DNA of 64,000 bases from Gemmatimonadota bacterium (GTDB lineage Bacteria > Gemmatimonadota > Gemmatimonadetes > Gemmatimonadales > GWC2-71-9): positions 1 through 64,000 of the forward strand of contig PNAE01000008.1 in NCBI GenBank assembly GCA_003169895.1. Reading direction: 5' to 3'. Below, piece after piece: positions 7,823 through 48,182 of this stretch. Both the position numbers and the translations under genes were made by a program. Positions within the stretch are counted from its first letter, which is position 1, and each line of letters opens with the position of its first letter. The notes under the pieces are model-generated. The model made no database searches. It saw only the letters and a program-made list of their open reading frames with translations, and was not told the origin of the DNA.

Positions 7823-7864
7823 CCAGCAACGCCGAAGAACACATTTCGTCTTGAGGAGGAGCAA

Positions 7865-9571
7865 ATGCCAAATCGAATCGCACTTGCTATCAGCGTTTGT
7901 ATTGCAGTCGGAACTGCGTCATGCGCCGCAGATGTCCACGAGGTGAACAGCCCCACCGCAGCGCTGGCCGCGCCGCCAGCCGCAAGACTAATCGACCGGA
8001 CTGTTCACGGGCCGTACGCCTCTGTTGTCGTTCGCTACGGAACGAACGCACCTGAGGCTCGGCTCCATGCTGCGTTTGTGAGCGGCGTTCGGGCGATTGA
8101 CGATTCGCGAAAGCACCGGGCTCTCAGGTTGGAAGTCGGGTTGTCCGCTCTGCCGAGTATCCTCGGCCAACTAAAGAAGTTCTCTTGGATTACTTCCTTG
8201 GAGATCGACAGTTCTCGCGCCCACGTAGAGTCTGTCGACGCTCGTCCCGTGACCGCTGACAGGCTCATGATACGGCGCCGTTCACAGGAGGTCCCGTGGG
8301 GCATCCTCTTCACCGGAGCACGGGCCGTTGACAGCGCCACCGGCAACGAAGGGAGTGGAGTTAAGGTCGGGATTATCGATTCCGGCATCGATTGCAATGG
8401 TGGCGACCTATCCGGCCAAGTTTACGGTGGATATGACTATTGGGATGATGTTGCTACTGGGTGCGCGGCCGTGACGTATCATGGAACTGCAGTAGCGGGT
8501 ATAATCGCCGCCGCGAACAATAGCGGAGGCGTCATTGGGATGGCTCCGGCGGCCCATCTTTACTCGTATGCGGTCACGGACACATTAGGTCAATTGTTGT
8601 CCCAAACAGTGCTCGCCGAAGCCATCGATGCCGCCGTAGCCGACGGAATGCAAGTGATCAATCTTAGTATCTCAAATTGCGGTGATACTGCATTCACCGT
8701 GGTAAAGGAGGCGATCCTAGACGCAGAGAACGACGCCGGCGCAATATTTGTCGCGGCTGCGGGCAACGGGGCAACCGGTGGGCCAGGCAGTTGCTCAAAT
8801 AGCGACCCCGTTTCCGGATTTGCGCGAGTGTCCGGAGTCATCGCCGTGAGCAGATTTGACACGTCTCATGTCTACGCCGCAAACGGCCAGTACGGATCAT
8901 CAATTGTCCTGTCTGCACCGTCATTCGTCGACACCGATTCGCTCGGGTCTGGCTCTCCGATATACCACAACTTTCCTGGAACGTCAGCCGCAGCACCGCA
9001 TGTCACGGGAGCGATCGCACTGGCCCTCCATGCCGGCTACACTGCCAGCGGCGCCTTGAGCCTGCTGGAATCCTACCCGCGGCCCGGCCCGGGCCAGAGC
9101 GGTCGGGACAGCCACTACGGGTTTGGTCAGGTGTATCTGGGGGCGCTGCTGGCCGCGCCAACGCTCGACTCGATGCGGTACTGCACGAGCGGCAACTACA
9201 ACATCGTGAACAACGACTCACTCGTTGACGGCACGCACTGCGTCTTCAGAACGTGGACGGCTCACGGCGCGCCACCCGTGCAGGTTCGGTTTAAGGTCAT
9301 CACGAGTGTCGTGCATGACACTACGATCGGCGCCTGGGGACCGCATTCCCAAGAGATCTTTATTCCGCCAACGACCGGTGGCCTTGCCGCCGATACGGCA
9401 GGCTACACAATGACGGTCGTGGCGTACACGCGTGACTCGGTACTCCAGCGCGGAACGGATTCGGTTCTGACGAGCTTTTACGTATGCCACGTCACCGCCG
9501 GCGGTCTTCTCCGAACTGCGAGCCAACCGAGCTTTCGCCCCGTCCATCCGTTTCTTCCGGCAGGCTGCTAA
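7865..9571 (+). CDS. Subtilisin-like (S8) serine protease lipoprotein with C-terminal extension
   Basis: 568 aa from ATG 7865, with GAGGAGGAG upstream. Lipobox C20 in VGTASC. Residues 48-120 are an I9-like propeptide (YASVVVRYG ... WITSLEID). The peptidase domain spans about 145-410 with the complete set: Asp172 (IIDSGID), His206 (YHGTAVAG), Asn301 (AAAGNGA), Ser374 (PGTSAAAPHV). A 150-residue C-terminal region with paired cysteines follows and looks like an Ig-type beta domain. It is predicted to be exported, anchored and self-processing. Cargo of the inner island; paralogous in layout to the protease at the left edge. Confidence 0.93.
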   Translation: MPNRIALAISVCIAVGTASCAADVHEVNSPTAALAAPPAARLIDRTVHGPYASVVVRYGTNAPEARLHAAFVSGVRAIDDSRKHRALRLEVGLSALPSILGQLKKFSWITSLEIDSSRAHVESVDARPVTADRLMIRRRSQEVPWGILFTGARAVDSATGNEGSGVKVGIIDSGIDCNGGDLSGQVYGGYDYWDDVATGCAAVTYHGTAVAGIIAAANNSGGVIGMAPAAHLYSYAVTDTLGQLLSQTVLAEAIDAAVADGMQVINLSISNCGDTAFTVVKEAILDAENDAGAIFVAAAGNGATGGPGSCSNSDPVSGFARVSGVIAVSRFDTSHVYAANGQYGSSIVLSAPSFVDTDSLGSGSPIYHNFPGTSAAAPHVTGAIALALHAGYTASGALSLLESYPRPGPGQSGRDSHYGFGQVYLGALLAAPTLDSMRYCTSGNYNIVNNDSLVDGTHCVFRTWTAHGAPPVQVRFKVITSVVHDTTIGAWGPHSQEIFIPPTTGGLAADTAGYTMTVVAYTRDSVLQRGTDSVLTSFYVCHVTAGGLLRTASQPSFRPVHPFLPAGC

Positions 9572-9598
9572 GGTGGCCCCCTTCGGGCGGGGCCTCCT
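9571..9598 (+). terminator. Hairpin after subtilase gene
   Basis: GGCCCC ... GGGGCC stem with an outer AGG/CCT pair directly after the stop codon. A T-run follows only at about 9625, so it may be rho-independent in combination or simply a structured 3' end. Confidence 0.5.
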
Positions 9599-9756
9599 GT
9601 AGCACCGACGCCGCCAACGCCGTCCTTTTTTTGCCTTGTGTAGCCGCGGGTTGAATATTGGACATCCGTGACGATTGAAAATGGGACACTTCCCGAGGGT
9701 GGCTGGATCGCCCTCTGTGTCCTGACCTTTGGGCTTCACCGAGTGTGGAGCCCAGC

Positions 9757-10011
9757 ATGCACGGAGTCCCTGATCGCGTGTTACTACGACATCTATTGGC
9801 AGAGGCCGGCGGCTCCCGTCGCGAGGCCGCCCGACGCGCTGGCGTCGGCCGTTCGACGATGTACCGCTGGCTGGAGGGCGGGCTCCTCGACGAGCCGCAC
9901 AACGTCTCCGTCGACATGTTGGAGCGGATCGCGAAGGGGCTTAAGACGGACGTCGGACAGCTGATGACTGTGGCGGAACGCGAGCGCCGAGCACCCCAGC
10001 CTCGCTCGTAG
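9757..10011 (+). CDS. Small helix-turn-helix regulator
   Basis: 84 aa from ATG 9757, with GGAG seven bases upstream (GTG 9745 is possible but lacks a site). Residues 10-70 fit an HTH: GSRREAARRAGVGRSTMYRWLEG, followed by VDMLERIAKGLKTDVGQL, which resembles the Xre-type core. It probably controls island genes, alone or with the excisionase-like protein that follows. Confidence 0.65.
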   Translation: MHGVPDRVLLRHLLAEAGGSRREAARRAGVGRSTMYRWLEGGLLDEPHNVSVDMLERIAKGLKTDVGQLMTVAERERRAPQPRS

Positions 10012-10076
10012 AGTGGCACCCCAAATGTGAATACCTGACGAGTTTGGGCCCAAGCCCTTGCGGCCCGTCGGATCGA

Positions 10077-10096
10077 CATGTATATATTCATACATG
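10077..10096. promoter_or_regulatory. Inverted repeat upstream of excisionase-like gene
   Basis: CATGTAT-N6-ATACATG, a perfect 7-bp inverted repeat in AT-rich DNA 16 nt before the ATG at 10112. Position and symmetry suit an operator for one of the two flanking small HTH proteins. Confidence 0.55.
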
Positions 10097-10111
10097 TTGA
10101 GGAATTCATAA

Positions 10112-10429
10112 ATGTATCCCCAGCCCCCTCGCCCGGTGGTCACATGGGACGAGCCAGGCCCGTTTCAAGGCGTCACCATTGAACGCCAGCTTGACGACGG
10201 GAACTGGTACGCGTGGTACGTCCCGCACAACGGTGTAGCCCCGCAGGCGATGACCGCCGATATCCTCGGCGTGAGCGTGATGACCATTAACAACTGGGTG
10301 AATGCCGGCGATCTGGCGCACATCAAGTCGCCGGGTCAACCCTCACTCATCCCATTGGCCGACATCAAGCGCGTCAAGGTGGTCCTCGACGAACACGGTC
10401 GGCTCCGCAGAAGCGCGTTGGGGGAATGA
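10112..10429 (+). CDS. Excisionase-like DNA-binding protein
   Basis: 105 aa from ATG 10112, with GAGGAA upstream. The C-terminal half has the winged HTH pattern of MerR/excisionase proteins: AMTADILGVSVMTINNWVNAGDL, then PSLIPLADIKRV. The first 45 residues are unassigned. Placed between a small repressor-like HTH gene and the integrase module, it is the likely recombination directionality factor of the island. Confidence 0.65.
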   Translation: MYPQPPRPVVTWDEPGPFQGVTIERQLDDGNWYAWYVPHNGVAPQAMTADILGVSVMTINNWVNAGDLAHIKSPGQPSLIPLADIKRVKVVLDEHGRLRRSALGE

Positions 10430-10433
10430 ACGA

Positions 10434-11177
10434 ATGTCCCCGCGAGTGCCGAATACCCTTCCGGTCCTAGCGAGTCAGCACTCGCGCGGCGATGTCGAAC
10501 TCTCCGGCATGGCCTCGGCAATGCCGGTTGAGGTCCGCTCGGTGGCCGCCTTACGTCCGGTTGTCGACCGCGAGAAGCCGACTGCTGCCCCGGCGCGTCG
10601 TCGCACTAACCAGGAGCGAATCGACGCGGCAGGAAAGCTCCGGCGGAAAGGGATCAGTTTCGAGGAAATCGCCGCGCGGCTCGGATGCAGTGAACGAACA
10701 GCACGACGGATCGCCGGTCACGTCCAACCGGAGTTGAGACTTCCGGACGCCGAATCAGGACGGGACACCGATCCGCGGGAACTGCGCGAAGCACTGCTCG
10801 CAAGATTCTTCGACCGACTGTATCACAATCGACAGCTGCGCAGCGTCACGATCATTTGGCGGACAGACGGCGGTGAAGAGAAGTGCGGTCCGCCGACCAG
10901 CCGCTTTCTCAGTATTGCTGAAGGGCAGCTGCGCAAACGATTGGCAGAACTTGGTCTGCATTTGCTGCGCCGTCTCGCGGCGGACGCCGAGCTACAGACT
11001 GAATTCCTGCGGGACTGCATCGGCGCGCTGTTCGGCGATTACTTCTGGTGGCACCGGCCAACCGAAGAACTCTACGTAGGAATTCGCGGATCGAACGGTG
11101 AACTCTGGCGTCCACCGTGGGAGCGACCGGAAGACGAGCGACCGGGCTTCATCTACCTGTTGGAATTGGAAGTCTGA
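10434..11177 (+). CDS. Island protein with homeodomain-like HTH, function unknown
   Basis: 247 aa from ATG 10434, with GGGGGA upstream and only four bases after the excisionase-like gene. Residues 55-105 form a resolvase/homeodomain-type HTH (RIDAAGKLRRKGISFEEIAARLGCSERTARRIAGHV). The remaining 140 residues are rich in charged residues and Trp (FGDYFWWHRPTEEL) and match nothing I recognise. It could be a replication or accessory integration factor. Confidence 0.6.
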   Translation: MSPRVPNTLPVLASQHSRGDVELSGMASAMPVEVRSVAALRPVVDREKPTAAPARRRTNQERIDAAGKLRRKGISFEEIAARLGCSERTARRIAGHVQPELRLPDAESGRDTDPRELREALLARFFDRLYHNRQLRSVTIIWRTDGGEEKCGPPTSRFLSIAEGQLRKRLAELGLHLLRRLAADAELQTEFLRDCIGALFGDYFWWHRPTEELYVGIRGSNGELWRPPWERPEDERPGFIYLLELEV

Positions 11178-24834: not shown

Positions 24835-26091
24835 ATGACGGAGTTCCCTGCGTCCAGCGACTACGCGGCCGAGGCAGTGCGGGTCCGCGAACGGTTCGAA
24901 CGGGTTCTCGCCGCGGCCATCGCGATCTCCGCCGAACATTCGCTGGCTGCTGTTCTGCAGCGGGTGGTCGATTCAGCCCGTGACGTGGTGGGCGCACGGT
25001 ATGCCGCCCTCGGCGTGCTGGATGAGCGCGGGGAATTACTCGTCGAGTTCGTGACTTCGGGGATGACGCGCGAGTTGCGGCGGAAGATCGGCGACCTGCC
25101 CCGTGGGCACGGCCTGCTGGGCGCGTTGATTCGCGATGCCCGGCCACTGCGCACCGCCGACATCAACACCCATCCGCTCCGTTCCGGGTTTCCACCCCGC
25201 CACCCGCCGATGCAGTCGTTTCTGGGCGTGCCGATCGTCTCACGCAACCGGGTGTTCGGCAACCTGTATCTCACCGACAAGCTGGGCCAGCCGGAGTTCG
25301 GCGTCGAGGACGAGCAGATCGCGGTCCTGCTCGCGGCGCACGCCGCAGTCGCGGTGGAGAACGCCCGGCTGTTCGAGGAAAGCCAGCGGCTCGTCGCCCA
25401 GGTTCAGTCGATGCAGCGCCAGCGCGATCTGTTCTTCGCGATGATGAATCACGAGCTGCGCAACGCGCTCACCGGGGTCTACGGCTGGGCCGAGCTGCTG
25501 GTCCGCGGCAAGCCGAGAGACGCAGTCCCGCAGGAGGCGCGCGAAGTATACGAAGCGGCTGAACGGACGATCGAACTGCTGAACAACTTTCTTGACCTGA
25601 CGCGACTCGACGCCGGGAAGGTGAGGCCCGTGTTTCGCGACGTCGAGGCGCTGACATCGATCGAGCGAGCCTTCGCCTCCGTCAGCCCGAGCGCGACTGC
25701 CAAGGATATCTCGCTGGAGCATCGCGGCGAGGCCGCCTCGGTCGTGCTCCGGACCGACCCGGTGCGCCTGGAGCAGATCCTGCTCAACCTGCTGTCTAAC
25801 GCGGTCCGGCACAGCATGGCCGCCGTGCCGGTAACGGTCGACGTGACCCGGGCCGATCGCTGGGTCCAGTTCCGCGTGACCGACCGCGGCCCCGGGGTGC
25901 CGGCGGGCCTGGTCGAGCGAATTTTCGAGCCGTTCGAGCGGTTCGATCCTCATTCCGGCTTGGGTACCGGCCTCGGGTTGCCGGTATCGCGCCGGCTTGC
26001 CGAGGTCCTCGGCGGAAGCCTCCGGGTGGAGCGCGCCGACAGCACCGGATCGACGTTCCTGCTGGAACTGCCCGTCGACGCAGATGGGTGA
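24835..26091 (+). CDS. GAF-domain histidine kinase resembling DosS/DevS sensors
   Basis: 418 aa, no membrane segment. A GAF domain spans residues 30-175; the stretch GFPPRHPPMQSFLGVPI and the LYLTDK strand closely follow the GAF-A domain of DosS/DosT, where the His of the HPPM motif (His123 here) is the heme ligand. HisKA has phospho-His206 in MMNHELRNAL, and HATPase_c has LLNLLSNAVRHS, DRGPGVP and GTGLGLPVS. A heme-based O2/NO/CO or redox sensor is inferred from the motif. It is followed by its likely partner regulator at 26149. Confidence 0.88.
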   Translation: MTEFPASSDYAAEAVRVRERFERVLAAAIAISAEHSLAAVLQRVVDSARDVVGARYAALGVLDERGELLVEFVTSGMTRELRRKIGDLPRGHGLLGALIRDARPLRTADINTHPLRSGFPPRHPPMQSFLGVPIVSRNRVFGNLYLTDKLGQPEFGVEDEQIAVLLAAHAAVAVENARLFEESQRLVAQVQSMQRQRDLFFAMMNHELRNALTGVYGWAELLVRGKPRDAVPQEAREVYEAAERTIELLNNFLDLTRLDAGKVRPVFRDVEALTSIERAFASVSPSATAKDISLEHRGEAASVVLRTDPVRLEQILLNLLSNAVRHSMAAVPVTVDVTRADRWVQFRVTDRGPGVPAGLVERIFEPFERFDPHSGLGTGLGLPVSRRLAEVLGGSLRVERADSTGSTFLLELPVDADG

Positions 26092-26098
26092 AGATTCC

Positions 26099-26131
26099 TT
26101 CATGCGCGATTCATGCAGCGTTATGGCACGC
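26099..26131 (+). promoter_or_regulatory. 11-bp direct repeats upstream of response regulator gene
   Basis: TTCATGCGCGA (26099-26109) and TTCATGCAGCG (26110-26120), then TTATGGCACGC. Eleven-bp direct repeats are the usual operator form for OmpR/PhoB regulators. They lie 18-50 nt before the regulator ATG, suggesting autoregulation. Confidence 0.6.
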
Positions 26132-26148
26132 GAGTGTAGCATGTCAAC

Positions 26149-26832
26149 ATGAGGATTCTCGTCGTGGAGGACGACCGGAAGGTCGCGGGCTTCATTGCGC
26201 AGGGGCTGCGCGAAGAAGGGTACGTCGTGGATCACGCGCCGGACGGCGACCAGGCAACGATGCTGGCGCACGTCAACAGTTACGACGTGATCCTGCTCGA
26301 CCTGATGCTGCCGAAGAAGAATGGCCTGCAGATCGCCGCCGAGCTGCGGCGCGAAGGGCGCCAGACACCGATCCTGATGCTGACGGCCCGGGACGCCACC
26401 GAAGATGTGGTGCGCGGTCTCAACGCGGGCGCCGACGACTATCTCGCCAAGCCGTTCAAGTTCGACGAGCTGCTGGCCCGGGTGCGGGCGTTGGTCCGTC
26501 GCGGTGGCGCGGCGCGCACCGAGCTGCTGTCGCACGGCCCAATCGAGCTCGACCGCGTCAAGCACAAGACCAAGGTATACGGCAAGCCGGTTGACCTGAC
26601 GCCCAAGGAATTCCAGCTGCTGGAGCATCTGCTGCTGCACCGGGGTGAAGTGGTCCGGCGCACCGACCTGCTGGAGAAGGTGTGGGACCTGTCGTTCGAC
26701 CCGGAGACGAACGTGGTCGACGTGCACGTCGCGAACCTGCGGCGCAAGCTGCGCCGTGCAGCGAGCATGGACCTGATCCACACGATCCGGGGCGTGGGTT
26801 ACCAATTGGGCGGCGACGCCGCCCTGGTCTGA
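26149..26832 (+). CDS. OmpR/PhoB-family response regulator
   Basis: 227 aa from ATG 26149. The receiver (1-120) has Glu-Asp-Asp in VVEDDRK, phospho-Asp in LLDLMLP, Thr in MLTARD and Lys in YLAKPFK. The winged-helix DNA-binding domain (125-225) includes LTPKEFQLLEHLLLHRGEVVRRTDLLEKVWD and VVDVHVANLRRKL. Partner of the upstream GAF kinase. Repeats matching its expected operator form precede it and the neighbouring cytochrome genes. Confidence 0.95.
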   Translation: MRILVVEDDRKVAGFIAQGLREEGYVVDHAPDGDQATMLAHVNSYDVILLDLMLPKKNGLQIAAELRREGRQTPILMLTARDATEDVVRGLNAGADDYLAKPFKFDELLARVRALVRRGGAARTELLSHGPIELDRVKHKTKVYGKPVDLTPKEFQLLEHLLLHRGEVVRRTDLLEKVWDLSFDPETNVVDVHVANLRRKLRRAASMDLIHTIRGVGYQLGGDAALV

Positions 26833-26847
26833 CGCACCTGCAGAATC

Positions 26848-26880
26848 TTTATCGTCGATCCACGAAGGCTTCATCCAGCC
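26848..26880 (+). promoter_or_regulatory. 22-bp spaced direct repeat upstream of Cyc2-like gene
   Basis: TTTATCGTCGATC at 26848 and TTCATCCAGCC at 26870, two helical turns apart. The first unit is nearly identical to TTCATCGTCGATC at 28358. Located 65-97 nt before the ATG at 26945. Confidence 0.6.
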
Positions 26881-26944
26881 GGTGTGACATCGTGGGGGCG
26901 AATCGTCCCAGTCGCAACAAACTGACCTGCGAGAGGAGTCGGGC

Positions 26945-28336
26945 ATGCTGGCTCTGTATCTGATCCTCACTGCCTCCCCGCCCGTGCGAGACCTGACGGA
27001 TCATGGTCCTGCACGCCGGGACGTCACGCCCGCCATGGTCCGGTCATATATCAACAACCGTACGGCAGGGTGGAGTGCACACGCGGCAACGACCCCGGGT
27101 TTCGCCCGCCAGACCGGGCTCGCGTGCAGTGCATGCCACACCGCCTTTCCCGGGCTCACCGCGACGGGCCGAGCCTTCAAGCTCAACGGCTACGTCTATC
27201 GGCAGGCAGACTCGCTGCAGGGCCTGAACCCGGCGGGTAAACAGGACCTGGCGTTGAACCTCAACATGCCGCTCGCCGCCATGTTCCAGACCTCCTTCAC
27301 CAGCACGAGCAAGGCGCAGCCTGGAGCGCAAAGCACGACGGTGTTCTTCCCGGATCAGATCAGCCTGTTTGCCGGCGGTGAGGTGACCCCTCATCTGGGC
27401 GGATTCCTGCAACTGACCTTCGACCCGCAGAGCGGAGGCTTCGGCGTTGACAACACGGACTTCCGGTATGTGAGCCACACGACCATGTTCGGCCAGCACG
27501 CGACGTACGGCGTGAGCCTCAACAACAATCCCACGGTGCAGGACCTCTGGAACAGCACGCCGGCCTGGGGTTTTCCATACGGCAGCTCCGCGGCGGCGCC
27601 CTCGCCGGCCGCGAGCACCCTGATCGACGGCAACCTGGGTCAGCAGGTCGCCGGCCTGACGGGCTACACGATGCTGGGCGACCATCTGTACCTGGAGTTT
27701 GGCGGCTATACCGCCGCGCCGGTCGGGCTCAACCGGCCGCTCGACTCGACTGCAGCCGGCGTCATGCGTGGTGTCGCGCCGTACTGGCGCGTGGCCCTGC
27801 CGCTGACCTTCGGCAATCAGTACCTGTCGATCGGCACCTACGGCATGGCGGCGCAGCTGTATCCTGCTGGCGTGACGGGGCCGACCAACCGGTTTACCGA
27901 TGTGGCCGCCGACCTGAGTTACTTCGTACCGATCGGCACGAACAGCTTTTCGGCCAATGCGACGTTGATCCATGAGTCACAGCGGTGGGACGCCGGCGGA
28001 TCCGCCAATCTGCAGAATACACTCACCACGTTCCGGTTCGACGCGGCGTATCATCTCGGTCATCAGTATGCCTTTACCGTGGCGCCGTTCACCACGACCG
28101 GGACGGCAGACACACTGTTGTACGCCCCTGGGACCATGACAGGCAGTCGCACCGGACAACCGAACAGCAGCGGGTTGATCGCGGAAGTCGACATCATGCC
28201 TTGGCAGAACCTGCGCCTGCAGTTCCAGTATACCGCTTACGGCAACTTCAATGGTGCGACGACAAACTACGACGGGTTCGGTCGGAACGCATCGCACAAC
28301 AACACTTTCTACTTCCTCACCTGGATCCTGTTCTGA
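26945..28336 (+). CDS. Cyc2-like fused cytochrome-porin
   Basis: 463 aa from ATG 26945, with GAGAGGAG upstream. Residues 47-65 read AATTPGFARQTGLACSACH, which fits the diagnostic A-x3-P-x-FARQTG-x2-CxxCH N-terminus of Cyc2 iron-oxidising outer-membrane cytochromes. It is a single-heme head followed by about 380 residues of amphipathic strands (HLGGFLQLTFD, YLEFGGYTAAP, YAFTVAPFTTTG) ending FYFLTWILF with a terminal Phe, as in outer-membrane barrels. In Cyc2 the plugged barrel passes electrons from external Fe(II) to the periplasm. Substrate here is unproven; related barrels of unknown role share the heme head. The signal peptide is atypical (no basic n-region). Confidence 0.75.
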   Translation: MLALYLILTASPPVRDLTDHGPARRDVTPAMVRSYINNRTAGWSAHAATTPGFARQTGLACSACHTAFPGLTATGRAFKLNGYVYRQADSLQGLNPAGKQDLALNLNMPLAAMFQTSFTSTSKAQPGAQSTTVFFPDQISLFAGGEVTPHLGGFLQLTFDPQSGGFGVDNTDFRYVSHTTMFGQHATYGVSLNNNPTVQDLWNSTPAWGFPYGSSAAAPSPAASTLIDGNLGQQVAGLTGYTMLGDHLYLEFGGYTAAPVGLNRPLDSTAAGVMRGVAPYWRVALPLTFGNQYLSIGTYGMAAQLYPAGVTGPTNRFTDVAADLSYFVPIGTNSFSANATLIHESQRWDAGGSANLQNTLTTFRFDAAYHLGHQYAFTVAPFTTTGTADTLLYAPGTMTGSRTGQPNSSGLIAEVDIMPWQNLRLQFQYTAYGNFNGATTNYDGFGRNASHNNTFYFLTWILF

Positions 28337-28357: not shown

Positions 28358-28392
28358 TTCATCGTCGATCCATGAGTCGTTCATCGTGGATC
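28358..28392 (+). promoter_or_regulatory. TTCATCGTnGATC direct repeat, 22-bp spacing
   Basis: TTCATCGTCGATC (28358-28370) and TTCATCGTGGATC (28380-28392), the best-conserved pair in the window, immediately after the Cyc2-like gene and 36 nt before a small Tat-signal ORF. Confidence 0.65.
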
Positions 28393-28428: not shown

Positions 28429-28614
28429 ATGTCCGTCCACGACGCCGGAGAGCTCGACGTCACGGCGCCGGCGCCGTCCCGCCGGTCCTTCCTGTTCAAG
28501 GGCGCGGCTGCCGCTCGGCTGAGCGGGTCAGCGAGTGCCGGTCTGGGGATGATGGCGGTCGCATTGCTGGAACGATCCATCGACCGCGTTGAGACGTTAC
28601 GTCGTCCTTGCTGA
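28429..28614 (+). pseudogene. Short ORF with Tat signal, probably remnant of an exported protein
   Basis: 61 aa from ATG 28429. Begins with a twin-arginine motif (SRRSFLFKGAAAA) and hydrophobic stretch, then stops after about 35 further residues; no downstream frame clearly continues it. The strong regulator-type repeat directly upstream implies a formerly regulated Tat-exported redox protein. The rest of 28615-28802 shows no gene. Confidence 0.4.
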
Positions 28615-28802: not shown

Positions 28803-30260
28803 TTACGGTGACGCGAGCCGCCGCGGAATCGCGGTGCCATGACACGCGATGCAGAGCTGCGGGTTCTTTCGCAGCATCCGCTCCGGGTCGAATCCGGGGC
28901 CATGGGGATCGAACGAGCGTCCTTTCACCACTGAATGACAGGTGAGACAATCGCGCTCGACGTGACACGAGACGCAGCTCTCCAGCGCTTGGCGCGCCGC
29001 CTGCCCATGACCGAGGAAGAACTGCCGGTTGCCGTCGTGATACCCGGCCGCACCGATCAGCGTGCGTCGAGCGGTGAGGCCCCCCTGCTTGTGACAGGTC
29101 TGGCAGAATTCGCCCGTATTGTGACAGTCGGTGCATGAACTCGACCGGGTGTACGCGTCGGCAGGATGCCGGGCGAGATACGCGCCGGGGTGATAGCTGC
29201 CGCGGCGCGCCGGATCGGGCACGTGACAGGTGAGGCACTCGGTGCGCGCGTGGCAGCTCGTGCAGGAGCGCAGCGTCGACGCCGCAACCGATCCGTGTTG
29301 CGTCTTCCATCCGGCCGTATGACTCGCCGGCATCCGCAGTGCGGTCTGGGCCCCCGGCGCGCGTCCCGGGCCCGCACGATAGAGTGCCAGCACGGCAGTC
29401 GGCGCCTCCGCCCGGTGACAGGTCAGGCAGCTTTCCTGCGTGTGACAGCTGCGACAGCTGGCTCCGGTGCGGCCGGCGAGTGCGCCATGCTGCGACTCGA
29501 AATTTTTCGCCGCGTGTGTCGGCGGTGCCTTCAGTGCGTGAGGCAGCGCCAGCGACCGCTTGTCCAATTCGAGCGCCTGGATCACGGGCAACTCGGGGGC
29601 ATTCACGTGGCATGCCACGCAGAACTCGCGCGCGTGGCATGTAGCGCAGCTTTGCGCCACGCGTGCGCCGCCGATCGTGTGTCGCGCCTGGGCGCCGTGC
29701 CCCGCGGCCGTTATGAATCCTGGCGCCTGATGGGTTGGCGGTGCGGGGAACCCCGCGATCCGCGCGGTCGGCAGCGTCACGGCGCGCGCGAGCGTCAGGT
29801 GACAGGTCGCACAGGCGGTGTCGGCCAGCGTCAGGTGTGTGCCGAGGCCGCTCGTGTGACACGCAACGCATTGCGGCGCGGTCGGCGCCCTGACAGCCAT
29901 CCAGGCGGCGCCGCGGTCAGCATGACAATCCGCACAGCCACTGGTATCGCCGCGTTGGCGTCGAACCTCGGCATGCTGGACGTGATCGAACCGCAGGTTG
30001 GAGATACGCGGGCCGGCGCGCGGTTGCCAGTCGACGCGGCGTTGAACGGTACCGTCGTGACAGGTGGTGCATGCCGCAGCCGGCGGAAACACCGGTGCAC
30101 CGGACCGCATGATTCCCGCATGACAGGTGGCGCAGCCCACGAAGAGCTTGGCGTGTTGCGCGTGGTTGAAGCGCGGCTGCTGCTGCAGCGCCACACCCGA
30201 CGCGACCGCCACAACCGAGCCGAGCAGCACCAGCGTGCCACGCAGGACGCGGCGAGTCAT
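28803..30260 (-). CDS. Periplasmic 16-heme c-type cytochrome
   Basis: 485 aa, overlapping the upstream barrel gene as ATGA. Signal peptide MTRRVLRGTLVLLGSVVAVASGVA. I count sixteen CxxCH motifs spread evenly from CATCH near residue 43 to CIACH near the C-terminus, with many extra His for bis-His ligation. No catalytic motif (such as nitrite-reductase CxxCK) is seen, so it is probably an electron carrier. Last gene of the 35370-28803 operon; with the barrel it could form a porin-cytochrome conduit. Confidence 0.88.
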   Translation of the reverse strand: MTRRVLRGTLVLLGSVVAVASGVALQQQPRFNHAQHAKLFVGCATCHAGIMRSGAPVFPPAAACTTCHDGTVQRRVDWQPRAGPRISNLRFDHVQHAEVRRQRGDTSGCADCHADRGAAWMAVRAPTAPQCVACHTSGLGTHLTLADTACATCHLTLARAVTLPTARIAGFPAPPTHQAPGFITAAGHGAQARHTIGGARVAQSCATCHAREFCVACHVNAPELPVIQALELDKRSLALPHALKAPPTHAAKNFESQHGALAGRTGASCRSCHTQESCLTCHRAEAPTAVLALYRAGPGRAPGAQTALRMPASHTAGWKTQHGSVAASTLRSCTSCHARTECLTCHVPDPARRGSYHPGAYLARHPADAYTRSSSCTDCHNTGEFCQTCHKQGGLTARRTLIGAAGYHDGNRQFFLGHGQAARQALESCVSCHVERDCLTCHSVVKGRSFDPHGPGFDPERMLRKNPQLCIACHGTAIPRRLASP

Positions 30261-31753
30261 GGTGCTGCTCCCGCCGGCCGTGCCGGAGGCAGCCAGCGGT
30301 CAGCAGCCGAGCGCAGCGTGAGCGACGCGCGCGCGCTCAGGCGCCATTGGTTCCAGTCGATTGCCGCCGCGTCCGGCCGGTCCTGCGACTCCCAATACCG
30401 GTCGACCCCAACGTCGAGTCGCCACCGCTCGCCGACACGATAGGCGGCGGAGGCGCCGGCATAGGTCACGCCGGCATCCTGGAACCGCAGCTCCAGGGGG
30501 CGTTCAAGGTTGCCGCCGTCGAGTGAAAGGTCGAACGCCGCGTGCGGACGCCATGTGACTCGGCCATCGATGCCGCTCGACGAGGCACCGGGCTGCAACT
30601 CGCCGTGCGTGTCGATTTCCACCGTCCATCGTTCCGCTGGCGCGAGCGTACCCTCCAGTGCCCAGCGCCAACCCCGATCCTCCAGCGTGACGCTGGGCGT
30701 GCTGACGTCGGCCGCATCATAGCGGAACCATTCAGCTCGCGAGCGGACTTGCAGCTTCGCCGTCGGATTCACGGCGATCGAACCGCTGATACCGTTGAAC
30801 GGCACCGGGCTGAAGACGCCCCATACGGTCCACAAGTCGAAGAACGGGCGATAGTGTCGTGCGGTAATCGTGCCCGACACCCGCAACCCGCTGTAGCTGG
30901 CCGATGCCTCGGCACTCCCCCACTGACCCTGGGCGATGTCGTAATCGGCGCCGGTCACGAACCGGATGTGCCGCTCCGGTCTGGCCTGCAAGCTCACCGC
31001 GGCGCGCTCCGCGACGATATAGTCGGTGACCGGGTCGAGCTCCCGCCGATACTCGGCTTGCACGTCAACGGCGGGTAGGTGCGCACCGACGACCGTGCCG
31101 ACGACGATCTGGCGGCTGGACGGCTGATAATCCGCGAGCGGGTCGACTGCGGGGCTCGTCACCGGCAAGATGGTCCCACGCGCCATACCCCATCCGGCGT
31201 AGCCGCCTACCTCCAGCGCGTCGCGGTTGAAGCGCCAGGTAGCGCGCAAACCATCGAGCCCGCTGGTGCCGACGCTCGCGAGCCGGCCGCGATCGAGCAT
31301 GCGGCCCAGTTGCGCGGTGAGGCCACCGCGCAGGTACTCGGCGTACCCCTCCATCAGATTGAATGGCGGCGACGTACCCGGCCAGACACGGTCGCCGCCC
31401 AGATCGGTGTAGCCGCGCGCGCTGAGCCGCACGCTCAAGCCCTGCAACCCGAGTCCCCACAGCGACAGGTCGACGCCGGCGCTGGCCGGCAGGCCGTTCA
31501 GCACCGGACCGGGCCGGAAAAAATAGCAGAAGCCATTGCCGGCGCAGTTGACCGCGAATCCGTCGGGTGTCACCGGACCAGCGGTCGCGCTGGTGACCGC
31601 GCCGGATTCCGCGATGCTGTCGGCCGTGAGTCCGCGAAACTCGACATGCTGCGCCGAGGCGTTGAGGCGCAGGGACCACGATTGCGCGGCGACCGGCCCG
31701 GCCGCCAGTGATGCGGCCACGGCGATCAGCAGGGCGCGCCCGGTCCGCGTCAT
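30257..31753 (-). CDS. Outer-membrane beta-barrel of porin-cytochrome type
   Basis: 498 aa, coupled by ATGA overlaps to cytochrome genes on both sides. Signal peptide ending AAGPVAAQS. The mature chain is a run of amphipathic strands (LWGLGLQGLSVRLSARGYTDLG, LEVGGYAGWGMA, WRLDVGVDRYWES) without heme motifs, consistent with a barrel of roughly 20 or more strands. Sandwiched between multiheme cytochromes it is positioned like MtrB/PioB/OmbB-type conduit barrels, though I cannot show homology to any of them. Confidence 0.75.
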   Translation of the reverse strand: MTRTGRALLIAVAASLAAGPVAAQSWSLRLNASAQHVEFRGLTADSIAESGAVTSATAGPVTPDGFAVNCAGNGFCYFFRPGPVLNGLPASAGVDLSLWGLGLQGLSVRLSARGYTDLGGDRVWPGTSPPFNLMEGYAEYLRGGLTAQLGRMLDRGRLASVGTSGLDGLRATWRFNRDALEVGGYAGWGMARGTILPVTSPAVDPLADYQPSSRQIVVGTVVGAHLPAVDVQAEYRRELDPVTDYIVAERAAVSLQARPERHIRFVTGADYDIAQGQWGSAEASASYSGLRVSGTITARHYRPFFDLWTVWGVFSPVPFNGISGSIAVNPTAKLQVRSRAEWFRYDAADVSTPSVTLEDRGWRWALEGTLAPAERWTVEIDTHGELQPGASSSGIDGRVTWRPHAAFDLSLDGGNLERPLELRFQDAGVTYAGASAAYRVGERWRLDVGVDRYWESQDRPDAAAIDWNQWRLSARASLTLRSAADRWLPPARPAGAAP

Positions 31754-33756
31754 TCAGTGCCAGCCTTCATCAGACGAGGCTGGAATTCCGCCGGCGTCGC
31801 GAGGAAATGACACGTCGTGCACTCACGTCCCGGCAAGTGCGCCTGCTGCGCGGCGTGGCACGTGAGGCAGAACGTCCGGCTCGGCGTGAGTGCCGCGATT
31901 CGCGATGGCGTGTGACATTCATCGCAACCGACGTGGGTGGTGCGTGAATGTGCCGGCGGCGTTTCAGGTCGATTATGGCATGCGGTGCAGGTCCGCTGCG
32001 CTTCGTGGTGCTGGGCATGACACGCCTGACAGGAACGGATGCTGTCGGGGGGCACGATATTCGGCGGCTGATGGCACGCGGCGCACGGCGTCTGCTGATG
32101 CACCTCGTGCCGGAAGCCGACCGTGCGCGCAACCGGCGGCTTGCCGGCCACGCCTACGCCCACGATCATCGGCCGCACTGCCGCCAGCTTCGCTGCCGTG
32201 TGACACCGGGAACAGTCGGTCGCGGTCACCGTTCCGGCCATGAGCGATTGATGATGGCAGAGATCGCAGCCGCGGGGCACTTCGAACACGAGGCGGTTCC
32301 CCGTGTTGACCGCGTGACAGGTGAGGCAAGGGAGTGACGTATGACGGCTGTGGGGGAAGGAGTCTGCGGGGGGGCCGGCGCGAACGATGGGCGAATCGCG
32401 CGACGGCGGCTGCTCCGGCAAGGCATCCCCCTTGCCCCGGTGGTCCGGTACGGTTTCAGCTGCATGCTCGAGCAGTGATTGCGTTGCCGCACCGGCAATC
32501 CGCCGCCGTAGCACGGCAGCGGTGTCGAACGGCAGCGGCGGATGGAACTGGCCGCGGCGTTGCACTGCCGTGTGACACCCCACGCAGTCGGATGCGTCCA
32601 CCGACGCCGCGTGCGGCTCGTGGCACACCAGGCACTGGGCCGCCGCTCGGCGATGATTCGCGCCACTGTGGAAGGGGTTCTGCGCGACGGCCGCGTGGCA
32701 CTTGACACACGACGTGCGCGCGTCGGTCGCCTTGGTGTCGGTATGCACGTCGTGGCACGATCCGCACGAGCCCTTGTGCGGATCCTTGTCCGCCACGTAG
32801 CCGGATGGCCGCCCCTGCATGCCGTGGCAACTGAGACACTGGCTCTTCGCCGGTACCAGCGCCCGCACCGCGGAGTCGTGCGTTGCCAGCCCCGGCAGGT
32901 CGGCGCGGAACGCGTGGCAAGTCACGCAGCTGATGGTCGGCAGTTTGGTCATCCCGGCTAGCCGCACCGATTGCTGCTCGTGACAGCCGCTCTGCTGGCA
33001 GGTGCGATTCGACGGGATGAAGTGGTGAATCTCGGCGCCGTGGCACTTGACGCAGGTGAGTCGGCGCAGCACCGCCGAATCGGACTCGAAATGCACGCGG
33101 TGGCCGGCCAGTCGCAGCGCGTGTTGCCACGGCTCGCGACCGCCGACCACCTGGTGGCAACTCTCGCACCGGGAGTTGGGCACCGGTGCGTGCTTGCCGA
33201 TATCGTTGGGCCGGTTGGCGACCCAGAGCACCAGCTGCCGCCCGCTGGCGAAGATCGACTGCTGGTGGCAGTCGTGGCACTTGCGGTCCTCATGCTTCCC
33301 GGCAAACTGCTCGAAGCGTCCGAATGGCCGCTCCATCACGTGGCAGCCGGTGCAGAAGCCGTTGTCGTGCTGCATGTAGTCCCAACTCTTCTTGCCGGCA
33401 AACGCCGCGGCGCATACTAGCAGCAGCGCCGAACCGGCCAGCGTCAGCTGGATCTGGCGGCTGCGGGCGCGCAGCCAGCCAACGATCCGGGCCCGGCGGG
33501 TCCAGAGCAGCCCGACCACGACGATGCCGACCACCACCGCCAGGATGGCGCCGCCGATCTGGACCCAGCGCGGCACGCCGAATATGGTCCGCACCATGAT
33601 CGCCACGCCGCCAGGGAGCGGCGGCGTCGTGACAGTGTCGCGGATCGAACCGGCGGCGGCGGCCAGGGTATCCTGGACGCGAAAAAGCGTGTCCCTCGGA
33701 ATGGTGGTTACCCCACTCCGAGGGACCTGCTGGATCAGCGCCAGGAGGCTCAGCAT
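31750..33756 (-). CDS. NapC/NrfH-like quinol dehydrogenase fused to multiheme array (20 heme sites)
   Basis: 668 aa from ATG 33756 (GTG 33759 possible). Two membrane helices lie at about residues 65-120. Next comes a NapC/NirT-like segment (FCTGCHVMERPFGRFEQFAGKHEDRKCHDCH). Counting on, there are nineteen CxxCH motifs plus one CxxxCH (CQQSGCH). NapC/CymA proteins oxidise quinol with four or five hemes; here that head seems fused to some 15 further hemes. The fusion would let one inner-membrane protein pass electrons across the periplasm. A Pro-rich gap near residues 415-450 separates two heme blocks. Confidence 0.85.
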   Translation of the reverse strand: MLSLLALIQQVPRSGVTTIPRDTLFRVQDTLAAAAGSIRDTVTTPPLPGGVAIMVRTIFGVPRWVQIGGAILAVVVGIVVVGLLWTRRARIVGWLRARSRQIQLTLAGSALLLVCAAAFAGKKSWDYMQHDNGFCTGCHVMERPFGRFEQFAGKHEDRKCHDCHQQSIFASGRQLVLWVANRPNDIGKHAPVPNSRCESCHQVVGGREPWQHALRLAGHRVHFESDSAVLRRLTCVKCHGAEIHHFIPSNRTCQQSGCHEQQSVRLAGMTKLPTISCVTCHAFRADLPGLATHDSAVRALVPAKSQCLSCHGMQGRPSGYVADKDPHKGSCGSCHDVHTDTKATDARTSCVKCHAAVAQNPFHSGANHRRAAAQCLVCHEPHAASVDASDCVGCHTAVQRRGQFHPPLPFDTAAVLRRRIAGAATQSLLEHAAETVPDHRGKGDALPEQPPSRDSPIVRAGPPADSFPHSRHTSLPCLTCHAVNTGNRLVFEVPRGCDLCHHQSLMAGTVTATDCSRCHTAAKLAAVRPMIVGVGVAGKPPVARTVGFRHEVHQQTPCAACHQPPNIVPPDSIRSCQACHAQHHEAQRTCTACHNRPETPPAHSRTTHVGCDECHTPSRIAALTPSRTFCLTCHAAQQAHLPGRECTTCHFLATPAEFQPRLMKAGTE

Positions 33757-33792
33757 CACACCGCGAAAGTTATTTCATCGCCGATATATTCC

Positions 33793-35370
33793 CTACTGCG
33801 CCCGAACGAAGCCTGGCGAGCGCGCCTTGGCGTCACTGAGCGCCTTGACCACCTGGGCTTCGACCGATACCGGCGGCGCCGGGAGGGCATAGGTACTCTG
33901 CAGTTCAGTGATATTGGCGGCCAGCAGCGCCCGGGCCAGGAACGGATTGTGGACGCCCAGCGACTTGTCGCCGTTGGCGAAACGCCCCTCACCGAACAGG
34001 TCCACGTTGAACCACGCACCCTGCGCGGGCGTCACTTTCGTCGTGCTCGTCAACTCGGCCGGGTGGTCGCGCTTGATGATGGCGAGATACCCGGCGTCCG
34101 TCGGCGCCGCGTCGATCGCGCCGTTGTGATTGGAATCGATCCAGATCTGGTCCGCCAGGATTGCAATGTCCGATCGGATTTGGCCCAGGAGCGACGCAGC
34201 AACAGCCTGACTGCCGTGGCAACCGGACGCGGTGCAGGCGGCGAATGTCCGCGCCGTTGAAGTGAAGGCACAAGTGGTGTCGCCCGTGGGCTTGCCGTTC
34301 GCGTCGATACAGGGAATCGGCTGGAAGCTGTGCCCGGTCGAGTGGAACACAAAGCCGCCGGTGGCCGCATCGGTGACGTCGAACGCGTTGACGTGGCAGC
34401 CGGCACAGAGTTTCGGATTGGCCAGGCTGGCGTGCGTGGTGAGCGCGATCAGCGTGTCGACCGCAACGCCGGCCGGGCGATATCCGCCGGTTCCCAGCAA
34501 TACGAAGCCCTGCGGCGCATGGGGCGTCGAAGTGCCGGGCACCGGCTCACCGCGGCGCAGATGGCACTTCATGCACAGGTTCTGATCCGGATCAGGATTG
34601 TCGATCGGGAATCGGAGCTGGTGGCTGTTCGATGAGCCGTGCGGATTGTGGCAGACCGCACAAACCACCGCGGAGTAGCCGGTCGAGTCGCGCTCGCTGT
34701 AGTTGGTCGACACACCCCACGCCGTGAGCACCGTCTTGCCGTCGTGACAGTTCTTGCAGACGACGTTCGAGTTATTGACCGCCGGAGCCACAATGTTGGC
34801 ATGCCCGCTCGTGGCCCACTCCTCGGCAAACGGCTCGTGCACGCCGGTGTGGCATGCGGCACAACTGGCACTGGCGTTGGTCAGCGTCAGCCTGGCCAGC
34901 GGCCAGTTGGCCTTGTTGTCCGGCAGCGATACGTGCTTGGTCCCGGGACCGTGACAGCTCTCGCATTGGACATCCTGATAGGCGCTGTCGGGCTTGGTGC
35001 TCCACCCGGCGGGCGCCGCCAGTCCGTTCCCGTTTTCCGACACCGTGTGACAGGCGTAGCAGCTGCTGGTCGCGTGGCCGCTAGCCACCAGGTCCGAGAA
35101 GGCCTTGGCGTGATGGGTCTGCGACCAATCCTGTTGATGGCCGGCGTGGCAGTTGCCGCAGGTTGTCTGCTTGGTGCTGACCGTGTAGTAGCCGAGCAAG
35201 CCACTCGCAGCGTCGGGAGGCGCATTGAACGGTGCCCGGTCGCGGTAAACGATTTCGCTCGACGTGCAGGCAGTGAGCACCAGCACGAAAGCGGTGGCGG
35301 CGAAGACCCAGCGTCGGCGTACGACGCCTCCGGCTCGGGAATCGTTTGGTAGCTGGGGTGCGCGGGTCAT
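33793..35370 (-). CDS. Nine-heme c-type cytochrome lipoprotein
   Basis: 525 aa from ATG 35370, with GGGGG upstream; GTG 35397 is the other option. Lipobox FVLVLTAC. Eight CxxCH motifs and one CxxxxCH (CTASGCH). Heme spacing and segments such as CESCHGPGTKHV and CAVCHNPHGSSNSHQLRFP resemble cytochromes of the NrfB/DmsE and cytochrome c-554 fold group. The C-terminal 150 residues lack hemes and include a calcium-loop-like WIDSNHNGAIDAAPTD. First gene of the operon; lipidation allows placement on the outer membrane. Confidence 0.85.
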   Translation of the reverse strand: MTRAPQLPNDSRAGGVVRRRWVFAATAFVLVLTACTSSEIVYRDRAPFNAPPDAASGLLGYYTVSTKQTTCGNCHAGHQQDWSQTHHAKAFSDLVASGHATSSCYACHTVSENGNGLAAPAGWSTKPDSAYQDVQCESCHGPGTKHVSLPDNKANWPLARLTLTNASASCAACHTGVHEPFAEEWATSGHANIVAPAVNNSNVVCKNCHDGKTVLTAWGVSTNYSERDSTGYSAVVCAVCHNPHGSSNSHQLRFPIDNPDPDQNLCMKCHLRRGEPVPGTSTPHAPQGFVLLGTGGYRPAGVAVDTLIALTTHASLANPKLCAGCHVNAFDVTDAATGGFVFHSTGHSFQPIPCIDANGKPTGDTTCAFTSTARTFAACTASGCHGSQAVAASLLGQIRSDIAILADQIWIDSNHNGAIDAAPTDAGYLAIIKRDHPAELTSTTKVTPAQGAWFNVDLFGEGRFANGDKSLGVHNPFLARALLAANITELQSTYALPAPPVSVEAQVVKALSDAKARSPGFVRAQ

Positions 35371-35483
35371 GCTGGGTGCCCCCTTCGGGTCAGCCACGGC
35401 AGCGCTCGATGGGAGCGTTTGGCCGCGGTACTATCCCACATTACGCCGAGAATACTAGCTCCGGAGGAACGGCAAAAACGAGG

Positions 35484-35665: not shown

Positions 35666-37600
35666 TTACATGGAGCGCGCCGCGCGCAGCGCATTCACGA
35701 TGACCGCGACGTCGACCGCCTCTTGCAGGATCGCGCCAACCGCCGGCGGAATCATGCCGAACATCGCGAACCCCATCGCGATGCCGCTGAGTACCAGGCC
35801 GCCCCAGATGCTCTGGCGCGCGATCCGCATGGTGCGGCGGCTGATGTCGATGGCTTCCGCGAGTCGCGACGGATCGTCGCCGAGGATGACCGCGTCCGCG
35901 GCCTCCGCGGTGATGCCGCTGCCGCCGCTGGCGAGCGCGACGCCGACCGTGGCCGCACTCAGCGCCGGTGCGTCATTGGTGCCGTCGCCGACCATGACCA
36001 CGCGTTCCCCGTTGCGCATCAGCGCCTCGACCGTGGCCACCTTGTCCTCCGGCAGGAGGTCGCCGTGCGCCTCGTCAATGCCGACTGCGTCGGCGATCCC
36101 ATCGACATTCGCTTGTGCGTCGCCGCTCAACAGCAGGACCCGGCGGATGCCTGACTGGCGCAGGCGATCGATGAACCGCGGCATGCCGACGCGAGCACGG
36201 TCGGCATACTCGATGACCGCCGCGGCGTGACCGTCGATGGTGACGAAGGCGCGCAGTCCGGCGTTGGCCCCCGACAATCGTGCGAACTCCGCATGCGACC
36301 CCGGATGCGCCGCGATGACGAAACTCAGCGCGCCCACCCTGATCGTGCGACCGTCGACCCGGCCGGTGACTCCCGCCCCTGGCGATTCCACCACGTCGAC
36401 CGCCAGCGGGGGCTTCAGCTCTGCGCGGCTTGCCGCCTCGACCAGCGTGCGCGCGAGCAGGTGGCCGGAGCCCTGTTCCACCGCGGCGGCGATCCGCAGG
36501 ACGGTGTCGCCGTCCCATCCCGGTGCGGGTATCACTCTGGACACCTGCGGCTTGCCGAGCGTCAGCGTGCCCGTCTTGTCGAAGACCACGATCGTGGCGT
36601 GCCCCATCTGTTCGAGCGCGCTGCCACGCCGAATGACCACGTGACGCCTCGCCATCTGGTTGATCCCGGCCACGATTGCGATCGGCGTGGCGAGAATCAG
36701 TGGGCACGGTGTCGCAACCACCAGGACGGCGAGGACTCGAATCGGGTCCTGGGTCACGAGATACGTCAGGGCGCAGACGGCGAGCGTGAGCGGCGTGAAC
36801 CAGATGGCGTACCGATCGGCAAGCCGCTGCAGGGGCGCCTTGCTGGCCTGGGCATTGCGGACCAGCTCCACGATGCGGTGATACTGACTTTCCGCCGCTG
36901 GTGCCGTTGCCCGTAACGTCAGCGGGCCCTCGAGGTTGAGCGCTCCGCCCATGAGCGGCACGCCGGGCCCGGCGCTGATCGGGACAGGTTCTCCGGTCAT
37001 GGTCGATGCGTCGACGTGTGACTGCCCAGCCGTCACGGTCGCGTCGCACGGGATCATCTCGCCCGGCCGGACCAGCAAGGTATCGCCCACGACGATCGTG
37101 TCGACGGTGAGATCGGTCACGACGTCGTCACGTATCCGATGGGCCCAGCGTGGTGCCGCGGCCTCGAGGTCGCGCAGCGCGCGCGACGCACGACCTTCCG
37201 CGATGCGCTCCAGCGCTTCGCCGCCGGTCTGCATCACGACGATCACGAGTCCCGCGAACGACTGGTCGAGCGCGAACGCCATGATGATCGCGAAGGAAGC
37301 GACGAGGTCCGCGGCAAGGCGCCCGGCCGCGACGCCGGCCAGGGTGCGCACGACGACCACGCCGCCGAGGAGTCCCAATCCCCACCGCCAGATCGTGTCG
37401 GCCGTCGCCGGGTCGCGCCCGCCAAACCGCACGGCGGCGCCGACCGCGAGGAACGCGATGGCTGCGCCGACACGCAGCAACGTAATGGGAGAACTGCCGG
37501 TCAGTATCCGGCCCGGACGGTGCGGGGGCTTGGCCCCCGGCGGAATCACCGGCGCCACGGGAGCATCACGGTGACGGTCAGCAGAGCTGCGCCGGATCAC
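35666..37600 (-). CDS. P1B-type heavy-metal-transporting ATPase with TPC motif
   Basis: 644 aa. Contains membrane-site motif TPCPLILATP, phosphorylation motif DKTGTLT, an SGHL-like sequence (GSGHLLA) at the nucleotide-binding domain, and GDGTNDAPAL. No N-terminal metal-binding domain; the N-terminus is a basic, proline-rich cytoplasmic tail. TPC at the transport site differs from CPC (Cu/Zn/Cd) and SPC (Co/Fe) pumps; family knowledge links TPC forms to Ni or Fe export, but specificity is not certain. Start overlaps the preceding gene (ATGA), indicating a coupled operon. Confidence 0.88.
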   Translation of the reverse strand: MIRRSSADRHRDAPVAPVIPPGAKPPHRPGRILTGSSPITLLRVGAAIAFLAVGAAVRFGGRDPATADTIWRWGLGLLGGVVVVRTLAGVAAGRLAADLVASFAIIMAFALDQSFAGLVIVVMQTGGEALERIAEGRASRALRDLEAAAPRWAHRIRDDVVTDLTVDTIVVGDTLLVRPGEMIPCDATVTAGQSHVDASTMTGEPVPISAGPGVPLMGGALNLEGPLTLRATAPAAESQYHRIVELVRNAQASKAPLQRLADRYAIWFTPLTLAVCALTYLVTQDPIRVLAVLVVATPCPLILATPIAIVAGINQMARRHVVIRRGSALEQMGHATIVVFDKTGTLTLGKPQVSRVIPAPGWDGDTVLRIAAAVEQGSGHLLARTLVEAASRAELKPPLAVDVVESPGAGVTGRVDGRTIRVGALSFVIAAHPGSHAEFARLSGANAGLRAFVTIDGHAAAVIEYADRARVGMPRFIDRLRQSGIRRVLLLSGDAQANVDGIADAVGIDEAHGDLLPEDKVATVEALMRNGERVVMVGDGTNDAPALSAATVGVALASGGSGITAEAADAVILGDDPSRLAEAIDISRRTMRIARQSIWGGLVLSGIAMGFAMFGMIPPAVGAILQEAVDVAVIVNALRAARSM

Positions 37601-48083: not shown

Positions 48084-48111
48084 GCAGCCAATCAAGCGCC
48101 GGAGGAGCCGG

Positions 48112-48127: not shown

Positions 48128-48182
48128 GCGAGGGAGCGATCCCCAGCGGCATCATCCCCTGGTCCCGATTCGAGGAATGCCC

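Follow-up and report, generated by a model that had tools for sequence, protein, structure and literature searches.

The gene at positions 26,945 to 28,336 of the window (the whole 64,000-nucleotide stretch of Gemmatimonadota DNA that we analysed) encodes a Cyc2-superfamily fused cytochrome-porin, referred to here as P0001, in which one residue of the strict Cyc2 motif differs and the signal peptide is atypical. It belongs to a clade (clade A) that, in trees with Cluster 1-like reference sequences, lies outside Cluster 1, the branch of the neutral-pH iron oxidisers. The sequence-only reading of this DNA had proposed a Cyc2-like iron oxidase. Membership of the Cyc2 superfamily stands, on the evidence of the motif, the heme site, the barrel and the profile match; a place in the iron-oxidiser branch of Cluster 1 does not, on the evidence of the tree.

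The cytochrome-porin and its barrel

The gene has the following features.

26933-26938, plus strand: ribosome-binding site GAGGAG, 6 nt 5' of the ATG, read from the sequence
26945-28336, plus strand: P0001, a Cyc2-type fused monoheme cytochrome-porin of 463 amino acids, from the open reading frame, motif, whole-length profile match and tree
27095-27157, plus strand: Cyc2 cytochrome motif PGFARQTGLACSACHTAFPGL, with the heme site CSACH at 27125-27139, from column conservation and the criteria in the available part of PMC8406198
27272-28330, plus strand: predicted 16-strand outer-membrane barrel, residues 110-462, from the AlphaFold2 model and a structural match to OprO/OprP

The open reading frame is intact, starts with ATG and includes AATTPGFARQTGLACSACHTAFPGL; the stretch around its one CXXCH is TTPGFARQTGLACSACHTAFPGL. 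It comes from a 3.42-Mb assembly that is 98% complete. No Pfam or NCBIfam model matched P0001, and sequence searches of the PDB (phmmer with P0001, and profiles) returned nothing meaningful.

In the available part of PMC8406198, Cyc2 proteins are recognised by the motif PXFAR[QK][TY] (in strict form AXPXFAR[QK][TY]), a single CXXCH with a PXL after it, and a signal peptide; they are also expected to have 365 residues or more and a barrel of 16 strands, for which OprO/OprP served as the template. The N-terminal motif that the sequence-only reading had claimed is present: P0001 has the screening motif as PGFARQT, one CXXCH and a PXL after the heme (CSACHTAFPGL) in a protein of 463 amino acids, although Thr replaces the Ala of the strict form (TTPGFAR). 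Its signal peptide is unusual in having a hydrophobic core from residue 1 with no Lys or Arg before it; by the same rough test, a basic n-region and a hydrophobic core were found in 33 of 36 relatives. We aligned P0001 with 44 of the 49 clade A loci (L105, L112, L118, L120 and L128 were left out) and, separately, 20 of the 31 Cluster 1-like loci, including Gallionella and Chlorobium rows. Exact matches to the strict motif occur in 16 of the 45 clade A rows and to the screening motif in 20, while a looser pattern, P.[FY][AS]R[QK][TYNIM], fits 42; among the Cluster 1-like rows, 13 of 20 match the strict form and 13 of 20 the screening form. All 45 clade A proteins have a single CXXCH, and P51, Q56, T57, C61, C64, H65, P69 and L71 are invariant in them, with R55 kept in 43. 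Because these columns are conserved across clade A and relatives are widespread, the motif in P0001 is not a chance occurrence.

The two alignments matched each other with hhalign at a probability of 99.9 (E 4.1e-33, 386 columns, 18% aligned identity), the reference rows on the Cluster 1 side being Gallionella and Chlorobium relatives rather than the biochemically tested Cyc2 proteins themselves. With the cytochrome segment removed, the barrels alone still matched (probability 96.9 local, 98.4 global); none of the 20 column-permuted controls exceeded 0.2, and the reversed control failed. At 29 positions the same residue is found in at least 85% of both clade A and Cluster 1-like rows. Most heme-segment residues are common to the two sets, and P0001 keeps the cytochrome columns that both share except F74, where it has Thr. 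Two residues that might serve as the distal ligand of the heme are K79, invariant in both, and M113, confined to clade A (41 of 45 rows). Four barrel residues, Y280, R282, D323 and N422, show no variation in either set (45 of 45 clade A and 20 of 20 Cluster 1-like rows), which makes them candidates for residues that may line a path for electrons or ions.

P0001 and Cyc2 Cluster 1 (Cyc2-PV1 of Mariprofundus, with a published potential of 208 mV, and the Gallionella and Chlorobium types) have in common a single-heme segment and a 16-strand OprO/OprP-like barrel, the latter modelled on OprO/OprP for Cyc2-PV1 in the available part of PMC8406198, together with PXFARQT, CXXCH, PXL, GRxFK and the four barrel residues. 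The two groups differ in detail. Clade A proteins mostly have three residues between the CH and the P where Cluster 1 has four, and an NNTxYxxxW end in place of that of Cluster 1, and they carry barrel motifs of their own, NNNPTVQDVWNTTPAWGFP (a consensus), GVAPYWR and NYDGxGRNAS, that are absent from the Cluster 1-like consensus. Clusters 2 and 3 (A. ferrooxidans Cyc2 and Leptospirillum Cyt572) were compared by description only and, in the published accounts as far as these were available, have the same architecture and motif as P0001.

The rest of the protein had been read as an outer-membrane barrel ending in Phe, with structure prediction as the suggested check. An AlphaFold2 model built on the 45-row alignment (pLDDT 82.8, pTM 0.79) has 16 long predicted strands at residues 110-462, and the final residue is indeed Phe. 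A Foldseek search with this model listed general porins. On realignment with VIA-align, the OprO/OprP structures 4rjx, 4rjw and 2o4v gave Z scores of 22.0, 21.9 and 21.8 (rmsd 3.4-3.7 over 312-324 residues), at the top of 998 realigned chains yet tied within one Z unit with OmpC and other general porins. The model of a Gallionella protein (20 rows) was poorer, with a pLDDT of 73.8, and matched the same group of porins.

A clade apart from Cluster 1

Relatives of P0001 were detected in 122 of 288 genomes of its order (E <= 0.001); some of these are short N-terminal matches to other Cyc2-like types, and many are full-length with 41-66% identity. Nine plasmid records also carry relatives, with 31-40% identity over 87-92% of the query. 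A scan of genome contigs with P0001 alone yielded 13 pattern-matching stretches and no confirmed relatives, and a scan with the motif alignment yielded 80 loci. Of these, 49 resemble P0001 in type and 31 are of the Cluster 1 type; Gallionella (L071) and a Chlorobium MAG (L081) belong to the second set.

The sequence-only reading had proposed a phylogeny with the Cyc2 clusters as a check, and for Cluster 1 the outcome is that P0001 does not group with the Cyc2 proteins of Gallionellaceae and Chlorobi. In a bootstrapped tree of 50 rows (49 of the 121 available and one from L208), it falls inside clade A (28 rows, support 100/100), while the Cluster 1-like rows form a group of their own (14 rows, 100/98) and a third, mixed group (100/98) holds a paralogue from the same genome, P0002, and others. 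A larger tree of 101 rows (the 121 less 20 near-duplicates) agrees in placing clade A, the Cluster 1-like rows and the mixed group each on one side of a branch. Group labels in both trees were assigned beforehand, in part from the search that had yielded each row. P0001 joins L003 and L004 (100/100) and then other Gemmatimonadota.

Members of clade A were found in Gemmatimonadota, Bacteroidota, Acidobacteriota, Ignavibacteriota and Methylococcaceae, and on plasmids of Caballeronia, Paraburkholderia, Methylocystis, Ideonella, Polymorphobacter and Acidiphilium. The Acidiphilium gene has a counterpart on a plasmid of Acidithiobacillus. The genes on Acidiphilium cryptum pACRY03 (L033) and on an A. 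ferrooxidans plasmid (L038) both score 225 bits at 36.9% and have identical neighbours, which suggests that a plasmid was exchanged or that the culture was mixed. Cyc2 homologues of Gemmatimonadota are already in print, in the available parts of PMC9769843, PMC9671151 and PMC13055281; as far as the second of these goes, the Cyc2 proteins of hot-spring Gemmatimonadota, Bacteroidota and Acidobacteriota are assigned to Cluster 3. A genuine Cluster 1-like Cyc2 also occurs in the order: the gene at L208:12656-14005 (genome G187) groups with a Hydrogenophilus row (99/89) and adjoins the multiheme operon described below and a further Cyc2-like gene.

Regulatory and redox neighbours

P0001 stands between a two-component system and, convergently, a multiheme cytochrome operon.

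24835-26091, plus strand: GAF-HisKA-HATPase sensor kinase (Pfam)
26149-26832, plus strand: OmpR/PhoB-type response regulator (Response_reg and Trans_reg_C)
26848-26874, plus strand: candidate regulator site upstream of P0001, three TTCAT-like half-sites spaced 11 bp (12 of 15 positions)
28358-28384, plus strand: second 11-bp-spaced TTCAT triplet, downstream of P0001 (14 of 15 positions)
28429-28614, plus strand: P0003, a 61-amino-acid open reading frame with a twin-arginine-like SRRSFLFKG start, possibly not a gene (no Pfam match)
28803-30260, minus strand: 16-heme cytochrome, the convergent neighbour (16 CXXCH; Mtrc-MtrF and Cytochrome_C7 matches)
30257-31753, minus strand: predicted outer-membrane barrel of a multiheme conduit (no Pfam match; barrel judged from sequence and context)
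31750-33759, minus strand: 19-heme cytochrome with an NrfH-like N-terminal part (19 CXXCH; TIGR03153 at E 4.3e-8, far below its cut-off)
33793-35397, minus strand: 8-heme cytochrome with a lipobox-like LTAC seen by eye (8 CXXCH; Cytochrome_C7 and C554 matches)

The sequence-only reading took the kinase and the multiheme operon together as a sign of electron exchange with the outside, and here its two elements part company. The kinase and regulator pair (24835-26832) is real, and two of the three closest relatives keep it in synteny: in L039 and L040 the clade A gene has a kinase of 68% identity upstream, and response-regulator homologues occupy the same place in both (84% over 119 amino acids and 78%, respectively). 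L041 has a response-regulator homologue too (78%), but other genes lie between. Half-sites spaced by 11 bp are typical of OmpR/PhoB-family binding sites. None of 300 mononucleotide shuffles was as good as the upstream triplet; the downstream one is the best of three sites scoring at least 13 in the window, and the two are alike by eye. Of 11 relatives from the same family, 5 have similar sites (scoring at least 12) ahead of the clade A gene. The pair probably controls P0001 through these candidate sites.

The multiheme operon, in contrast, is a neighbour rather than a proven partner, because it is convergent with P0001 and its four proteins had no match around the clade A genes of 20 other regions of the order. 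For this reason, and because motif scans place Cyc2-like genes beside the operon in only 3 of 40 loci (four with L194, seen by eye), we have dropped it as an obligate partner. Its barrel has homologues in 86 of the 288 genomes, and multiheme genes adjoin that barrel in all 40 loci fetched. The operon looks like a lineage-wide extracellular electron conduit. In its multiheme cytochromes and putative barrel it is like the Mtr/Pcc porin-cytochrome complexes, from which P0001 differs in having one heme and its own small barrel. P0003 was also considered as a conserved partner of P0001 and was rejected, being found in 1 of 288 genomes, its own. A P-type ATPase with a TPCPL motif is encoded at 35666-37600; L041 (48%) and L054 (60%) have homologues of it close to their clade A genes.

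Elsewhere in clade A, the gene next door often encodes an electron carrier. On the gene's own strand, the next gene downstream is a redox gene in 31 of 45 genome loci and in 6 of 7 plasmid loci, as against 15 of 147 background genes, and 37 of the 45 have one on either side. The background figure for upstream genes (31 of 147) is inflated, since a Cyc2-like gene may itself be the upstream neighbour, and therefore only the downstream comparison is used. Cluster 1-like loci have different neighbours, with a redox gene downstream in 3 of 26 and on either side in 10. Within the order the share is lower: a redox gene follows the clade A gene in 3 of 21 cases, and a heme gene lies on either side in 9, or 11 once two SoxE genes (L039 and L040) are added. 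All these counts stand as computed by a script that overlooked those two sulfocyanins and the Rieske-like protein of L099, and they leave out loci with fewer than 600 bases downstream, open-ended genes, L118 and L128.

The identity of the carrier changes with the lineage. In the Bacteroidota, L103-L105, L114 and L127 have a monoheme and a pentaheme cytochrome after the clade A gene, and L088 (4764-8830) has a cytochrome c, a pentaheme cytochrome, a molybdopterin oxidoreductase and a 4Fe-4S protein by Pfam. Four acidobacterial loci (L092, L099, L135 and L138) have a Rieske-like protein and then a very large open reading frame with four or five CXXCH. Among these, Pfam was run on L092 alone (7264-10867), where the first is a Rieske protein and the second a fusion of cytochrome b with c domains; in L099 the Rieske-like assignment comes from inspecting the N-terminus by eye. 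Each of the three closest relatives of P0001 has a SoxE/sulfocyanin gene directly downstream (L039, 3.9e-18; L040, 4.6e-17; G016, by coordinates). SoxE occurs in 56 of the 288 genomes of the order, and a search of P0001's own genome did not find it. In the literature available, no report of adjacent Cyc2 and sulfocyanin genes was found, although one may exist. In G005, an alpha-type carbonic anhydrase gene (L044:10609-11400) lies directly downstream of the clade A gene.

These arrangements recall the rus operon of Acidithiobacillus, given as cyc2-cyc1-cup-coxBACD-rus in the available part of PMC10654088, in that clade A genes likewise precede a c-type cytochrome or the blue-copper protein sulfocyanin. 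P0001 itself does not conform: no cytochrome, blue-copper or cox gene follows it, and no redox gene on its own strand was found directly next to it in the window. The paralogue P0002, encoded outside the window and with the strict motif as AIPAFARKY, heads a cluster (L059:9715-16147, G000:C6) in which the next genes encode a diheme cytochrome c and then COX2, COX1 and COX3, an order that resembles the cyc2-cyc1-coxBAC of the same published operon without rusticyanin. If the organism oxidises iron, this cluster is a better candidate than P0001 for a complete chain. Two COX1 loci score over the cut-off in the genome, which also encodes NosZ. About 21 kb downstream of P0001, the window has a nitrous oxide reductase-like open reading frame (49215-51257; nos_propeller 6.2e-35) and, just before it, a partial COX1 match (48047-48979).

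A probable role in electron uptake

On balance, the data favour a function for P0001 in electron uptake from a small dissolved donor, most likely Fe(II). The donor, the direction of flow, the export of the protein and its partner are all matters that we infer, and uptake is favoured because clade A genes often adjoin an electron carrier. P0001 would sit in the outer membrane, where the donor would enter the barrel and give up one electron to a heme that probably lies near the periplasmic mouth. From there a periplasmic carrier would take the electron onward, to be received by a terminal oxidase or by the nitrous oxide reductase. In relatives that carrier may be the cytochrome c, the sulfocyanin or the Rieske/cytochrome b encoded next door; P0001 would have to depend on one encoded elsewhere in the genome or on the adjacent multiheme system. 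A search of the genome for the RuBisCO large subunit found none, and iron would therefore more likely supplement heterotrophy than support growth by the Calvin cycle. Counting against this explanation are the separation of the clade from Cluster 1, the lack of a same-strand redox neighbour, the lack of SoxE and of the RuBisCO large subunit, the atypical signal peptide, the presence of an adjacent heme gene in only 9 of the 21 clade A genes of the order and the possible iron reduction that the authors of FeGenie allow for Cluster 3.

Because P0001 lies in a clade separate from Cluster 1, iron oxidase is a title that it can bear only by inference. There is some chance, though not a large one, that the same conduit serves another donor, whether Mn(II) or Cu(I), some sulfur species or a small organic compound, from which the heme would take an electron in like manner. 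Clade A has conserved barrel motifs that are missing from the Cluster 1-like consensus, and therefore the chemistry of the lumen may differ; its neighbours vary by phylum, its members extend to Methylococcaceae, Bacteroidota and Burkholderiales, and Cyc2 has been proposed, in the part of that literature available, for Mn(II) lithotrophy in Manganitrophaceae. Against this, the heme segment is mostly common to Cluster 1-like rows, and the sulfocyanin found beside the closest relatives is counted by FeGenie as a marker of iron oxidation in the available part of PMC7005843.

Flow in the opposite direction is an unlikely reading, in which P0001 would act with the multiheme operon as an outlet for electrons to metals or other extracellular acceptors. 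It derives from the operon itself, with its 16-, 19- and 8-heme cytochromes and barrel, from the Cyc2-like genes of other types that motif scans find close to this operon in 3 of 40 loci (L194 is a fourth by eye), and from the available part of PMC7005843, where Cluster 3 Cyc2 is noted in iron reducers and listed as probable for iron oxidation and possible for iron reduction. However, the operon was not found near clade A genes in 20 other regions, and the three closest relatives (G013, G016 and G020) gave no match to its barrel. The neighbours seen elsewhere in the clade fit uptake better: c-type cytochromes, sulfocyanin and Rieske proteins are usually carriers of high potential.

That P0001 is decaying or is not exported, having lost a normal signal peptide and its sulfocyanin partner and being perhaps non-functional here, is improbable: the want of Lys or Arg before its hydrophobic core and the absence from the genome of the SoxE found beside the gene in all three closest relatives point that way, but the frame is intact over 463 amino acids, the shared cytochrome columns (F74 apart) and the invariant barrel residues are kept, and a good ribosome-binding site and a candidate regulator site lie upstream.

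A broader proposal, which we put forward only tentatively, is that clade A represents a major branch of Cyc2 that has gone unrecognised, with members in at least five phyla and on proteobacterial plasmids, in which the same outer-membrane heme-barrel feeds periplasmic acceptors that differ by lineage. In Bacteroidota the acceptor might be a monoheme cytochrome together with a pentaheme/molybdopterin module; Acidobacteriota might use a Rieske-cytochrome b/c complex, and the closest Gemmatimonadota sulfocyanin. P0001 would then be a member under two-component control whose sulfocyanin gene has been lost. If this is true, clade A would be a modular part for extracellular electron uptake, and its neighbour genes make the electron chain testable carrier by carrier. 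Matches to Cyc2 need to be placed in a tree before they are used as markers of iron oxidation. Should clade A oxidise iron, extracellular electron uptake would reach Gemmatimonadota, Bacteroidota, Acidobacteriota and methanotrophs, groups that are not usually counted among the iron oxidisers.
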